Part shown: positions 400-20,148 of the stretch, in pieces | Numbering within the stretch: the first letter of the stretch is position 1 | Layout: each line of letters opens with the position of its first letter | The notes under the pieces: generated by a model | Seen by the model: only the letters and a program-made list of their open reading frames with translations | Told to the model about the DNA's origin: nothing | The model's database searches: none | Made by a program: the position numbers and the translations under genes | IMG/VR virus record: IMGVR_UViG_3300013131_000066 | Span: 1 to 49,079 of that record | Reading direction: 5' to 3' (one strand) | Length of the DNA stretch: 49,079 nucleotides | DNA from: a virus

Positions 400-634
400 A
401 ATGTGCCAGTTAAAAAATTGTCCATTTTTATTTGGTGGGGGTGTCTAGAATCGTCCAGCGCATCATCGCATGCACCACTCCCTCTCAACGAAGTCTCTGA
501 CATCTACGCGCCTGGGGACACCAGCCAGTAGATACCCTGCGGCGCTACCAAGGGGATAGGGACAATGGCAAAGGGAATTAGTTGGTTTCCTGATAACTGC
601 CTGTTATTCGGAATCCTGATAAGCTCCCTTCGCT

Positions 635-15238: not shown

Positions 15239-15266
15239 CCCCGCCTAATTAGGTGGGGTTTTTTTG
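15239..15266 (+). terminator. Rho-independent terminator with AATT core
   Basis: CCCCGCCT and AGGTGGGG pair, with one G-U, around AATT, followed by seven T. It ends the methyltransferase transcript. Confidence 0.9.
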
Positions 15267-15332
15267 TTGGTTGAGTTGGGGAAAATTCGCCCAAGCTTCC
15301 CCCCGTATCCATAAAAAAAACCTTCCTATAAA

Positions 15333-15360
15333 AAAAGAGCCCCTAATTAGGGGCCCTTTT
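15333..15360. terminator. Bidirectional palindromic terminator
   Basis: GCCCCTAATTAGGGGC (15339-15354) is a perfect palindrome with A-run on its left and T-run on its right. On the minus strand it is followed by at least six T and lies just past the stop of the leftward 15371-15550 gene, so it probably terminates that gene. Confidence 0.8.
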
Positions 15361-15590: not shown

Positions 15591-15923
15591 TTTCCTATTG
15601 TTGCAAAAACTCCCGCCAGGATCGGCGAACTTTAGAAAAACTTTACAATTCATTGATTAGTATTTCTTATGGGGAGCAGTAGTACGGGCGTACTAGCGCG
15701 GCGGCGGGGGCTCACCCCCTCCCAAGCGGAACACTATTTTCAAACGACTTTTTTGCCCCTAAGTATAAACAATTCCGCCTCTTTTTTCGCTCATTATAAA
15801 GAGCGCTTCGCGCTCTGTCAGAACATCTTCAATGTTCCTCTTTATAGCCCAAAAGCCAGTAGATACTGCCCGAACGGTTATTCTTCAATGGACGGGAGTG
15901 AGGGCATTAGATTGTTCGCGCTG

Positions 15924-15980
15924 AGGAAAGTGCCACGAGCGAGCGAGCCCTCAAGGCGAGCTTTATTCAAGCACTTTCCT
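15924..15980. repeat. Structured element C (five-copy hairpin family)
   Basis: A 10-bp outer stem AGGAAAGTGC (15924-15933) / GCACTTTCCT (15971-15980) encloses a 37-base interior. The string GGCGAGCTTTATTCAAGC at 15955-15972 is identical to that of element B although the outer stems differ. The inner hairpin is GCC-CTCAA-GGC. Confidence 0.6.
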
Positions 15981-16017
15981 TTCCATAGTTTTTTTGTTTT
16001 TTTGCAGTAGTTCTGTT

Positions 16018-16137
16018 ATGAAAGGAATTATGGCTGTTTTTTCATGCTCCCCCTGGCTGCGCACACTATCAGCGGCTAGTGACTATTTACTAGCTTGTAA
16101 GCCAAGAAAAGAAAGTAGTTTAGAAGATGGTTGTTAG
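16018..16137 (+). CDS. Possible 39-aa peptide
   Basis: A frame MKGIMAVFSCSPWLRTLSAA ends with LEDGC. It begins after element C, but its 3' end forms one arm of the long-range stem at 16126-16137. It has no recognised family, so it may be non-coding. Confidence 0.25.
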   Translation: MKGIMAVFSCSPWLRTLSAASDYLLACKPRKESSLEDGC

Positions 16138-16139
16138 GA

Positions 16140-16189
16140 AGAGGCCCTAGGAACGAACGCCTTGGGGGCTATTGCGCGTACGGGCCTCT
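16140..16189. repeat. Structured element D (five-copy hairpin family)
   Basis: An 8-bp outer stem AGAGGCCC / GGGCCTCT encloses 34 bases: AGGAACGAA, a GCC-TTGGG-GGC hairpin, then TATTGCGCG. It aligns with E in the same orientation and with the reverse complements of A, B and C. The 15 bases at 16191-16205 (AGCGAAGGGAGCTTA) are shared with the flank of A. Confidence 0.65.
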
Positions 16190-16231
16190 GAGCGAAGGGA
16201 GCTTAAGAAAAGCTTTTTGAAAGGGGCCAGA

Positions 16232-16285
16232 GGAAGGCCGCAGGAATGACGCTCTTGGGGAGCTACCTTCGCGAAGCGGCCTTCC
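16232..16285. repeat. Structured element E (five-copy hairpin family)
   Basis: A 10-bp outer stem GGAAGGCCGC / GCGGCCTTCC encloses 34 bases: AGGAATGAC, a GCTC-TTGGG-GAGC hairpin, then TACCTTCGCG. Compared with D, both the outer and the inner stem have changed on both arms so that pairing is kept. Confidence 0.65.
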
Positions 16286-16424
16286 GCACAATGGCTAACA
16301 ACCATCGTTCCTGCTGGAAATGGCAGGTACGACTTTCAGCCGAGGCTGCGCCATGAGCCTATCGTATATCAGCCTGTGAGTCAGAGTATGCTACTATTTA
16401 AGAGTGTTTACGAAAAAAAGGACC

Positions 16425-17117
16425 ATGATTCAGAATTGTCTGCTGGTGTTGGCATGGGCTAATGCTCCAAACAAGGTGCGGCTTATTCCTTGTCAAAATG
16501 AGCAAGAAGCCGTTAGTGAAATTGCAAGCATGGTGCTATGCAGCTCTGAAGATTTGCAAGTGACAGCTTTTGGCTTTATTGATGATGCTCATCGTTTTAG
16601 AAGCCAATGGTCTTCTATTGCCAAGGAAGAATGGTTTGATTTTTCTCCTGCAATGAAGGCGCTGCTCCTGGACACCCTGGATAATCGGCGTAAAGTTCTT
16701 AAAGCTGTTATTCCCTCTTCCATTGACAATTATTTGCGATGGCCCGAATGGAACATTTCCCATGCTGAACGTCGTCGTCTTAACATTGAGGCAGGGCGCC
16801 TGCCAAGCTTTGTACAAGATGCCACTGATTATGTGCTATGGGCCGTTGCCGCTGTTAATGCTCAACGCAACTATTGCTGCTCTCGTGATATTGTTCGCCA
16901 TCCTGCAAATGATGGACTTTACAATTCAAGTACCATCTACAATGTCCTTGCTGAAAGCAAGAAAAAAGGCCTCATCAAAGAAGATATTATCGCCACTTCT
17001 AAAGTATTTTCGCTCACCAATGCAGGCACAAAGTTTTTGAAAGAAACAGAAGAAGTTTCAAAAACGCCTCGTCTACGCAAAAGCGCTAAAAGCCTTTACG
17101 GAGGAATTGTTTCATGA
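16425..17117 (+). CDS. Hypothetical protein with C-terminal winged-helix-like region (230 aa)
   Basis: The product starts MIQNCLLVLAWANAPNKVRL, preceded by an AAAAGGA Shine-Dalgarno site, so I prefer ATG 16425 to the GTG at 16404. Residues about 150-215 (SRDIVRHPANDGLYNSSTIY then NVLAESKKKGLIKED and a VFSLTNAGTKFL wing) have the shape of a winged helix, suggesting DNA binding. The N-terminal half is unassigned. It overlaps the next gene by ATGA. It may be a regulator controlled by the structured upstream region. Confidence 0.6.
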   Translation: MIQNCLLVLAWANAPNKVRLIPCQNEQEAVSEIASMVLCSSEDLQVTAFGFIDDAHRFRSQWSSIAKEEWFDFSPAMKALLLDTLDNRRKVLKAVIPSSIDNYLRWPEWNISHAERRRLNIEAGRLPSFVQDATDYVLWAVAAVNAQRNYCCSRDIVRHPANDGLYNSSTIYNVLAESKKKGLIKEDIIATSKVFSLTNAGTKFLKETEEVSKTPRLRKSAKSLYGGIVS

Positions 17118-17362
17118 GCTATAATCTCCCCTATGAAGGCTTTGCAGAAATAAAGGCTATATGGCGCATTCACACGCCTAGTAAACGCTATAAAAATAAA
17201 ATATTGGCTATTTTTGAAAAGCTTATGCAGCCTGCTAAAACCAGCTTTTATAAAATTAGTTTTCCAAAATATGATGGCTATCAATTTGATTTGATGAGCT
17301 TGACCATCGAGCATGAAGACGCTACGATGCCATCGACCATGCCTTCCTACCCCGATTGGTGA
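17114..17362 (+). CDS. Small hypothetical protein (82 aa)
   Basis: A basic product (MSYNLPYEGFAEIKAIWRIH then SKRYKNKILAIFEKLM) of unknown family. ATGA overlap with the winged-helix-like gene fixes the start and suggests the two act or are made together. Confidence 0.6.
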   Translation: MSYNLPYEGFAEIKAIWRIHTPSKRYKNKILAIFEKLMQPAKTSFYKISFPKYDGYQFDLMSLTIEHEDATMPSTMPSYPDW

Positions 17363-17367
17363 CCACC

Positions 17368-17781
17368 ATGTTATCTTCTTTCAACGAATGGAGCCGTCTC
17401 GTCACAAAGCACGTTCTGGACGACCCTGCAGGCTTCAGCGAGCTTGTAAACCGCTTGGAAGTGTGTGAGCACGCTGGCAGCAAATCTGCCGCAGCAGCCA
17501 TGGGCTTTCTTCTAGGAAAAGCAGGAAGCATCCCTGAAAAAGAAGAGCCTTCTGTTTACGATGATGTGGTGGATGTTCTTGACCAAATGGGAGGGAGAAG
17601 CGATGGCAAGGGCCTAGAAGCCTGCGAAGCTGCAGATAAAATCTTTGGCATTATTTACCAATGGATTGATAAGACGCTGGAAGAAGATGGCTATCCCGAA
17701 GCAGAAGAAATGACGGAGGCCGAATGGAACACAAGGAAAGTGATCATGGAAGCATTTGCCAATAAAATGCCGCCTCTGTAA
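17368..17781 (+). CDS. Hypothetical acidic helical protein (137 aa)
   Basis: The product MLSSFNEWSRLVTKHVLDDP is helical and acidic, with an AMGFLLGKAG segment in the middle and a C-terminus ending NKMPPL. No family recognised. The start at 17368 lies 5 bases after the preceding stop. Confidence 0.6.
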   Translation: MLSSFNEWSRLVTKHVLDDPAGFSELVNRLEVCEHAGSKSAAAAMGFLLGKAGSIPEKEEPSVYDDVVDVLDQMGGRSDGKGLEACEAADKIFGIIYQWIDKTLEEDGYPEAEEMTEAEWNTRKVIMEAFANKMPPL

Positions 17782-17852
17782 CATTCCTTACTTATTTCCC
17801 CTCCATTGTTCTCCTTCTTGCCCTAGTCTTGCTAAAAGGCTGGGGCTTAATT

Positions 17853-18041
17853 GTGTTTGACGATCTTCCCGCTCCGTTTAATGTGGGGGCCATTAAGATT
17901 TGGCCCGTCCATAGTCGCCCTGGCTTTGCTCATTTCATTGCTTTTGAAGGCAAGCCTTTTTACTTTCGTTCTCGTGCTGAAGCCATGCTTTTTGCCAGGG
18001 ACAAGCAATCTGCGCACGATCCTGAAAACATTTGCGACTAG
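17853..18041 (+). CDS. Small hypothetical protein (62 aa)
   Basis: GTG 17853 (MFDDLPAPFNVGAIKIWPVH) or TTG 17829 could be the start; a purine-rich AAAAGGCTGGGG precedes the GTG. The pattern IAFEGKPFYFRSRAEAMLFA suggests a beta-beta-alpha unit. A terminator follows at 18088. The function is unknown. Confidence 0.5.
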   Translation: MFDDLPAPFNVGAIKIWPVHSRPGFAHFIAFEGKPFYFRSRAEAMLFARDKQSAHDPENICD

Positions 18042-18087
18042 CGGAAGGGAAGGGCTTGGTTTGCGCTAGCCTGCTTTGGTTGGTCGC

Positions 18088-18112
18088 GCTCCGCTTGGCG
18101 GGGCTTTTGTTT
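18088..18112 (+). terminator. Rho-independent terminator
   Basis: GCTCCGC (18088-18094), TTG, GCGGGGC (18098-18104) with one G-U pair, then TTTTGTTTT. It ends the operon beginning at 16425. Confidence 0.8.
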
Positions 18113-18114
18113 TC

Positions 18115-18240
18115 ATGACGTTTAAGGAACAAGCAAAGGCTGAAAAAAGTGATAGGATTCCCTGTATCTCGTCACGGAGCTTGCCCCACCATGTCGCCTC
18201 CAGCCCATTTGCCACTCGACATCGAAAGGATGGCGAGTAA
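18115..18240 (+). pseudogene. Possible remnant frame overlapping the HNH gene
   Basis: ATG 18115 opens MTFKEQAKAEKSDRIPCISS and runs to a stop at 18240, ending in Arg/His-rich sequence out of frame with the HNH gene. The first 16 residues look like a genuine protein N-terminus, the rest does not. It may be the start of a gene interrupted when the HNH gene arrived. Confidence 0.25.
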
Positions 18241-18712
18241 GTTACTTGTTGATCCATCCAGTCCAACAGGCTTAAGGTGGAAAATAGACCACTGGAAAAT
18301 GAGGGCCGGCGACATTGCTGGCACCATTAAAGACACTGGTCACTGCATCGTCAATTTTTACGGCAAGCGATTTCACACCCATCGCATTGTTTGGGCTCTG
18401 CATAATCAACAAGATCCTGGTCCCTATACTGTTGATCACATTGATCGCAATCCCGCAAACAATGATCCCGCGAATTTAAGGCTGGCTACTTACGAAGGTC
18501 AGATGCGCAACACGCGCCCCAAAAAATCTAAATATGGCAGGGGTGTGAAAAAAATTGACAACAGGTACTACGCCCGAATTATTGTCAATAATAAAGACAT
18601 TAGCCTAGGCGGATTCGCCACAGCCGAAGAAGCCCGGCAGCGGGCAGCGCAAGCTCGCGAAGTCTATGCACAGCAAAATCATTCGTCCCTTTATCCGACT
18701 CTTGAATCATGA
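18191..18712 (+). CDS. HNH homing-type endonuclease with AP2-like domain
   Basis: Free-standing HNH homing endonucleases cut related genomes lacking the gene and so spread. The 173-aa product has HRIVWALHN (64-72), the catalytic VDHIDRNPANND (81-92) and NLRLAT (95-100), then an AP2/NUMOD-like DNA-binding unit (GVKKIDNRYYARIIVNNKDI, GGFATAEEARQRA, about 115-150). Its stop overlaps the start of the RNR alpha gene by ATGA. nrd genes are frequent homing targets, which fits this location. The start may be 18149 instead. Confidence 0.8.
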   Translation: MSPPAHLPLDIERMASKLLVDPSSPTGLRWKIDHWKMRAGDIAGTIKDTGHCIVNFYGKRFHTHRIVWALHNQQDPGPYTVDHIDRNPANNDPANLRLATYEGQMRNTRPKKSKYGRGVKKIDNRYYARIIVNNKDISLGGFATAEEARQRAAQAREVYAQQNHSSLYPTLES

Positions 18713-20148
18713 ATCTCAAAGAAAAAGCTCGTTGCACTCCCATTGCCCGCACTGGGCGCGTACAGGATTGGATGGACAATCCCGAAAATCGTCACGCTGT
18801 TAGCTGCACCACGTTTGTAGTAGAAGATTCAATGGAAGGGAGAGATGGCATTGAAGCATCTTGGCGCTTTACTTCCCATGGGCTACGAAATGGTGCTGGC
18901 GTGGCTATACATTTGTCTAAACTGCGCGGTAAGGGCGCAGAAAATGGCAAGGGCCTTGTTGCCAGTGGTCCCGTAAGCTTCGGTAAAATCTATTCCACGC
19001 TCAATGAAATCTTGCGTCGTGGTGGCGTCTATAAGAACGGCGCTGTAGTTCTTCATTTGGACTATGACCACCCTGATCTTCTTGACTTCATCACTGCTTC
19101 CCGCAGCGAACTTCCCTGGGCAAAGCGTTGCGTAAACGTAGATCAAGACTTCTTGGAAAAGCTTCCAAGCGGAGTTATTGATGCCTTGCTGAAGTCGATT
19201 GCCAATGGCGACGTATGGTTGATGAAGAAAAGATGGAACAATAAAGGAGAGCGCATTTATGGAAATGTGTGCCTTGAAGTGTTACTTCCTTCTCGCGGCA
19301 CTTGTCTATTGCAGCATGTCAATCTTGGTGCCTGTTCGCTAGGCGATATTCGGCCTGCTTTCGCTGAAGGCATGACACAGCTCTGTGAGCTTCATGCTCG
19401 CACTGGCGTTGGCGACACTGGCGAATATCTTTTTCCTTCCATTGATAAGCAAGTGGGCCTTGGCATTCTTGGCTTAGCTAATTTTCTTTCCATCCATGGC
19501 ATTTCTTATGAGGATCTTGGTGATGCTTTAGAAGCCTATTTAATAATGGACCCTGATGAATGGCTTTACACTTATGAAGAATCATCTGCTGGAGAATTTG
19601 TCTGGGCTTTAGACCAAGGCATCAAGAAAGCTGCCTTTGTAGCAATGCAGCATGGCATGGAACGCGCCTTTGCCATTGCTCCTACTGCCTCCTGCTCCTA
19701 TCGCTATCTTGACTCTCGTGGCTTCACCACGGCTCCTGAAATTGCTCCTCCCATTGACCGTCTTGTAGATAGGGACAGTGAAACAATGGGAGTGGAACGG
19801 TTTGATTATGGAGCAGTGGAAATTGCTGAAGAAGTGGGCTGGAAAGCATTTCGTAAAGTGGCTGATGGCATTTGCACTTTGCTTGAACGCACTGGTCTGT
19901 TCCATGGCTATTCCATGAACTGGTGGGCTGATCAAGTGGTGTGTGATGAAGCTTTTATTAAAGAATGGTTGGATAGTCCTCAAACCTCCATTTATTATGC
20001 TTTGCAAGTGCAATCTGGCACACAAGCTAAAGATGATGTTGGGGTAGAATTAGGGGAGAGCCTAACCAGCTTCTTTGGGCTGGAAAATGAAAACGAGCCT
20101 TTGGCTTGTTCTATAGAAACAGGCTTTTGCGCCGCCTGTTCCGAGTGA
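18709..20148 (+). CDS. nrdA: Ribonucleotide reductase class I alpha subunit, short cyanophage type
   Basis: Catalyses reduction of ribonucleotides to deoxyribonucleotides for phage DNA synthesis. Visible landmarks are Cys33 (HAVSC), RNGAGVAIHLSKLRGKG (60-76), the active-site NVCLE with Asn186, Cys188 and Glu190, the redox partner Cys198, the radical-transfer pair Tyr429-Tyr430 (SIYYALQV), and a C-terminal CAAC (474-477). There is no N-terminal ATP cone, and at 479 aa it is far shorter than bacterial NrdA (about 760), so allosteric activity control is probably absent. Its partner beta subunit follows after 81 bases. An HNH gene overlaps its start. Confidence 0.9.
   Translation: MNLKEKARCTPIARTGRVQDWMDNPENRHAVSCTTFVVEDSMEGRDGIEASWRFTSHGLRNGAGVAIHLSKLRGKGAENGKGLVASGPVSFGKIYSTLNEILRRGGVYKNGAVVLHLDYDHPDLLDFITASRSELPWAKRCVNVDQDFLEKLPSGVIDALLKSIANGDVWLMKKRWNNKGERIYGNVCLEVLLPSRGTCLLQHVNLGACSLGDIRPAFAEGMTQLCELHARTGVGDTGEYLFPSIDKQVGLGILGLANFLSIHGISYEDLGDALEAYLIMDPDEWLYTYEESSAGEFVWALDQGIKKAAFVAMQHGMERAFAIAPTASCSYRYLDSRGFTTAPEIAPPIDRLVDRDSETMGVERFDYGAVEIAEEVGWKAFRKVADGICTLLERTGLFHGYSMNWWADQVVCDEAFIKEWLDSPQTSIYYALQVQSGTQAKDDVGVELGESLTSFFGLENENEPLACSIETGFCAACSE

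Follow-up and report, generated by a model that had tools for sequence, protein, structure and literature searches.

Between a methyltransferase-like/DUF4942 gene and a gene that begins at position 16425, a metagenomic phage record of IMG/VR holds a non-coding stretch with two similar hairpins, D and E, flanked by a pair of complementary 12-nt segments. Does this arrangement represent a structured RNA, to which of the neighboring genes does it belong, and how did the repeated elements arise? We addressed these questions on the whole 49,079-nt stretch of DNA (here referred to as the window) and on its relatives, other IMG/VR contigs designated by L numbers below.

The phage and its noncoding region

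The capsid protein encoded in the window shares 86% identity with its counterpart in Synechococcus phage S-CBS4, which is also matched by many of the other proteins, and we therefore consider the window an S-CBS4-like cyanophage, i.e., a virus of picocyanobacteria. All the relatives bearing the module described below are metagenomic as well, and some of these records may be fragments. No open reading frame of at least 60 amino acids covers positions 16011 to 16403. Downstream of the methyltransferase-like gene, at 15239 to 15360, there are two strong terminator-like hairpins that share a common core (CCTAATTAGG).

A repeated hairpin module with covarying stems

Pattern scans of IMG/VR, together with inspection of the sequences, showed that D (16140 to 16189, plus strand) and E (16232 to 16285, plus strand) are two copies of one hairpin module of ca. 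50 nt. Both were recovered (57.9 and 27.5 bits, respectively) by a covariance model built from 18 copies. The parts of the module are, in this order, an outer stem that varies, the core GGAAnnnnCG, which is conserved, a short hairpin capped by a UUGGG loop, and CCUGCGCGU. In D, the outer stem is AGAGGCCC/GGGCCTCT, the core GGAACGAACG, the inner hairpin GCC-UUGGG-GGC, and the 3' loop UAUUGCGCGUAC, while E has the outer stem GGAAGGCCGC/GCGGCCTTCC and the inner hairpin GCUC-UUGGG-GAGC. Across copies, the outer stem measures 7 to 13 bp and keeps its complementarity with a sequence that is free to vary, the loops follow the patterns NGGAAnnn(A/U)C on the 5' side and (U)CCUGC(G/U)CG(U) on the 3' side, and the inner hairpin, as read from the sequences, has 2 to 6 bp (GCC/GGC, GCUC/GAGC, GCGC/GCGC, or GCUCC/GGAGC) under its UUGGG loop. 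Another hairpin, GCGAAGGGAGCUU...AAGCUUUUUG, lies between D and E (16192 to 16219, plus strand); in L003, its place is taken by one of a different sequence (GUUUC/GAAAC).

All eight pairs of the outer stem change on both sides, and their covariation score, obtained on an alignment fitted to the model, was 0.451, compared to 0.204 for shuffled alignments and at most 0.165 for slid versions. In a model-free count, 584 of 609 outer-stem positions were Watson-Crick pairs, with 15 G-T and 2 A-C; the G-T pairs trace to about four lineages, and both A-C pairs are found in overextended stems. This imbalance (15 to 2, in ca. four lineages) points to an RNA read in the orientation of the core. On the plus strand, neither D nor E has directly 3' of its stem the T run that would mark an intrinsic terminator. 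A switch pairing suggested by the fold of the window, between GCGAAGG and the 3' loop of E (CCUUCGC), was discarded, as the relatives were not consistently complementary there when inspected by eye.

Distribution of the module

At least 30 related contigs of IMG/VR contain the module. The covariance model recovered 69 copies in 32 sources and matched 23 of 24 whole records (which had been chosen for holding a module), with one to five copies per record. The usual layout comprises two tandem copies on one strand (D and E), an inverted copy ca. 200 nt upstream, and one or two opposite-strand copies 11 to 16 kb away, in a divergent intergenic region. The window carries all five, since the covariance model also located minus-strand copies at 15924 to 15980 and, at the left locus, at 635 to 684 (copy A) and 739 to 789 (copy B). 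At the site of the copy at 15924, relatives likewise carry an inverted one, which in several of them is followed by a T-rich run on the plus strand. After the left-locus modules, a conserved inverted repeat (GCGCCGCAGGG...CCCCAGGCGCGUAGAUG) was observed both in the window (480 to 560, minus strand) and in the left loci L081 to L085. The core of E has been lost in L055 and L071. The isolated phage S-CBS4 gave no covariance-model match, indicating that the module is dispensable in the wider group.

Searches beyond these phages were negative. At the gathering cutoff, Rfam gave no match in the window and none at these regions in nine relatives, and at a permissive threshold, the D/E region showed weak subthreshold matches elsewhere and nothing at these elements. 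A distant-mode search of phage and plasmid DNA collections found no homologue. The strict pattern had three matches in 84,980 bacterial and archaeal genomes, which we attribute to chance because their flanks lack the outer stem.

Conserved blocks upstream of the tandem modules

A small hairpin, GCTAGTGACTATTTACTAGC (16075 to 16094, plus strand), precedes D, and one of its pairs is A-U, C-G, or G-C depending on the relative. Farther upstream, a conserved structured block (15854 to 15920, plus strand) has the form AGUN4ACUGNNCGAAC...AGUGAGNNCA. Its stem UGNNC/GNNCA is fully paired in all 18 sequences, with compensation at three of the five pairs, and some of the relatives could also form a GAAC/GUUC pseudoknot (65% of cells paired). 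Before the structured region, at ca. 15675 to 15785 of the window and in relatives, we also found the conserved blocks GAGCAGTA, GGGNTACCCC, and ATTTTTCATCGAGTTTT, possibly a promoter or an origin.

A closing stem restricted to one clade

The preliminary description of this DNA proposed that a long-range stem closes D, E, and a small AGCTT hairpin into a compact domain of ca. 180 nt. The two arms of this stem, here called P0, are GATGGTTGTTAG (16126 to 16137, plus strand) and CTAACAACCATC (16295 to 16306, plus strand); they are separated by 157 nt and, as described, perfectly complementary over 12 nt. The view that such a match at the flanks of D and E is unlikely to arise by chance also held, as it appeared in only 1 of 20,000 simulations with 40-nt flanks. 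A perfect 12-bp pair somewhere in the 351-nt region was found in 0.4% of first-order simulations, and the whole 49-kb window contains four such pairs within 400 nt compared to ca. 1.6 expected. Since they are not rare window-wide, the significance of P0 lies in its position. When the single sequence was folded, P0 formed, but the interior came out unlike two clean hairpins; the two-hairpin interior rests on the comparison among relatives. Folding was more stable than that of shuffled sequences on both strands (z of -3.6 and -5.3), so that folding energy cannot tell which strand is the relevant one.

P0 is kept in the near relatives L003, L028, L030, L043, L049, L054, L055, L071, and L072. Its inner 8 bp (GAUGGUUG/CAACCAUC) are invariant among them and thus provide no covariation. 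Noncompensatory changes in related phages had been named beforehand as evidence against the stem, and they do occur beyond these first eight constant pairs: pair 9 is broken in L055 and L071 (as read from the sequences) and pair 10, without compensation, in L049, L054, and L072, whereas the outer pairs are retained with G-U wobbles in L003 and the L028 group. Shuffled flanks paired as well as the real ones in 0 of 300 cases for the window, 2 of 300 for L003, 3 of 300 for L043, and 21 of 300 for L072; the flank-duplex rows of L055 and L071 were disregarded, as a different CAACCATC had been picked there. A possible outward extension of P0, also from the flank duplexes, pairs 16111 to 16119 with 16329 to 16337 (both plus strand), and a similar one is found in L003 and L072.

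Deeper relatives that keep the two modules have no P0. Of the eight tested, five had flank duplexes with z values between about 0 and +1, and RNAalifold found no common closing stem in deep clades. As read from the alignment, GAGCAG/CUGCUC may in several of them close E by itself. The compact domain, with its two modules and the small AGCTT hairpin, is supported together with its closing stem in the near relatives; P0 is, judging from these comparisons, conserved but clade specific and without compensatory change.

The region accompanies the ribonucleotide-reductase cluster

The gene that follows the region in the window (16425 to 17117, plus strand), with 82% amino acid identity to its L003 counterpart, had been suggested as a winged-helix-like gene regulated by the structure. 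It has homologues in L003, L072, and, more distantly, L035, L041, and L056, and most relatives are without it. In these, the D/E region stands directly before a gene of ca. 80 amino acids followed by the ribonucleotide-reductase cluster, which in the window spans 17114 to 20148 (plus strand) and comprises genes of ca. 80, ca. 134, and ca. 62 amino acids, an HNH endonuclease, and the ribonucleotide reductase. The region is thus retained where the 16425 gene is missing, so that specific regulation of this gene is not borne out; as the gene is optional, the region goes with the ribonucleotide-reductase cluster instead. The winged-helix label itself finds an echo in a faint PadR match, but with an E value of 0.08, below the cutoff.

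Within the cluster, between the small genes and the ribonucleotide reductase, positions 18149 to 18712 encode an HNH_3 endonuclease with a weak AP2 match, probably a homing endonuclease. Just downstream of E, inspection by eye revealed operator-like sequences, which are TGAGAC repeats in L027, L076, L019, and others, and GAATT-N7-AATTC or GCCAATT...TGGC in other relatives.

Nested and copied modules

In two relatives, L054 (at ca. 264 to 390) and L047 (at ca. 1347 to 1470), a whole module plus a small trailing hairpin sits within the apical part of D. The same site is uninterrupted in the sisters L028 and L027, which provides two cases of occupied and empty sites. Target-site duplication was not seen by eye at the nested copies. 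The copy inserted in L047 resembles copies at other sites, and a plus-strand copy of L075 shares 91% identity, over 55 nt, with a copy at the inverted site of L059. The nested copies and the likeness between L075 and L059 suggest that modules have been copied between sites.

Structured RNA or mobile hairpin

Comparison among genomes establishes, at the level of sequence, the module family and its covarying stem, the covarying upstream block, P0 in the near relatives, and the synteny with the ribonucleotide-reductase cluster. The explanation that we favor, to which we would give an even chance, is that the S-CBS4-like cyanophages have here a structured noncoding RNA, or an RNA leader, in which the ca. 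50-nt module is repeated. The outer stem, of free sequence, would serve to present the constant internal loop and the UUGGG-capped hairpin. Tandem repeats of an unchanging core set in stems of free sequence would be expected of a protein-docking site, and this is the most likely role of the module, avidity being provided by the neighboring copies; in the clade of the window, the P0 helix would pack D, the middle hairpin, and E into one domain of ca. 180 nt. We infer that the region is transcribed and that the core binds a protein, a partner that is itself a guess; the region may act in cis or in trans. Against the RNA reading, we counted the lack of the module in S-CBS4, the folding of both strands, and the uncompensated changes in P0 together with its absence in deeper relatives. 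In addition, a single transcript does not account for a genome that contains the module in both orientations.

A small DNA hairpin that moves or copies itself, settling between genes and in its own copies, would explain these inverted copies as well as the nested ones; D and E would then be old insertions and P0 a by-product. The nested modules of L054 and L047, with their uninterrupted sister sequences, and the similar copies in L075, L059, and L047 also favor this alternative, the foremost of those considered but an unlikely one. Mobility does not account for the covarying stems, which are not copied unchanged, or for the fixed place and order of D and E across divergent phages; the low copy number (one to five per record), the absence of visible target duplication, and the chance-like matches of the strict pattern in the 84,980 cellular genomes argue in the same direction. 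A combined scenario, in which a self-inserting module colonized intergenic sites as well as its own apical loop, until the copies thus gathered were recruited into a large structured RNA of a new class that serves the phage during infection, seems to us improbable.

Two further readings concern function. One is a cis-acting leader before the ribonucleotide-reductase cluster, working on RNA polymerase by attenuation or by put-like antitermination; for the leftward transcript, the left-locus copies would do likewise. Such a leader would fit the position of the modules, which at both loci precede the next genes and share their coding strand. It also has a precedent in phage HK022, whose two early operons contain putL and putR, each of ca. 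70 nt with two stem-loops (PMC9378689). However, the promoter-like and operator-like sequences come, by eye, after the RNA region, and the left-locus modules face only ca. 1 kb of leftward genes, as the thyX/dcd/exo run starts elsewhere. Put-type antitermination is for the latter reason the weaker option, and we regard a leader of either type as distinctly unlikely. The least probable of all the readings is an element acting as DNA, either a replication origin or a protein-binding site exposed through extruded hairpins. It would draw on the conserved palindromic and T-rich upstream blocks (GGGNTACCCC and ATTTTTCATCGAGTTTT) and on the presence of modules on both strands, but GC skew does not change sign at the region, the stems wobble through G-T rather than A-C (albeit in few independent events), and the block at 15854 to 15920 is conserved and capable of a pseudoknot.

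To our knowledge, few structured RNAs have been described so far in freshwater cyanophages. The structured-RNA reading would add a modular one, located upstream of the ribonucleotide-reductase cluster and apparently undescribed, as no Rfam family matches it. The module family is widespread in S-CBS4-like phages, with clear covariation and beside nucleotide-metabolism genes, and its nested copies may illustrate how large RNAs grow through module insertion.

Comparison with known systems

GOLLD was first seen in lake samples. Together with ROOL, it belongs to the large structured noncoding RNAs associated with phages (PMC12286853), and the region described here is likewise a large structured noncoding region in a phage, but it has no Rfam match and its architecture consists of repeats of one small module. 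Compared by description, the putL and putR sites of HK022 share with it the tandem stem-loops, the two loci facing different genes, and the noncanonical stem interiors (PMC9378689). HK022 has two stem-loops of ca. 70 nt in each of two early transcripts; here, two modules lie at each of two loci, but with a span of ca. 180 nt and with few genes in front of the left locus. Unlike in put, there is one conserved core within freely varying outer stems, modules may number three or be nested, an inverted copy lies upstream, and the left copies head no long early operon. The GC clusters and double-hairpin elements of yeast mitochondria are short GC-rich intergenic hairpins that merge with each other (PMC4478555), which resembles the nesting in L054 and L047; in our phages, however, copies are few, positions are fixed, outer stems covary, and target duplication was not seen. 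Among structured cyanophage RNAs, manA (found in potential 5' leaders), wcaG, and PhotoRC-II (PMC2864571) come from T4-like phages or marine samples, and their Rfam models do not match here.

Two known RNA families did appear elsewhere in these genomes. The abiF RNA (RF03085) exceeded the gathering cutoff in L003 (10252 to 10288, plus strand), L041 (4839 to 4875, minus strand), and L043 (1675 to 1711, minus strand), with none in the window, and a glutamine-II riboswitch aptamer (RF01704) did so in L003 (11565 to 11618, minus strand).
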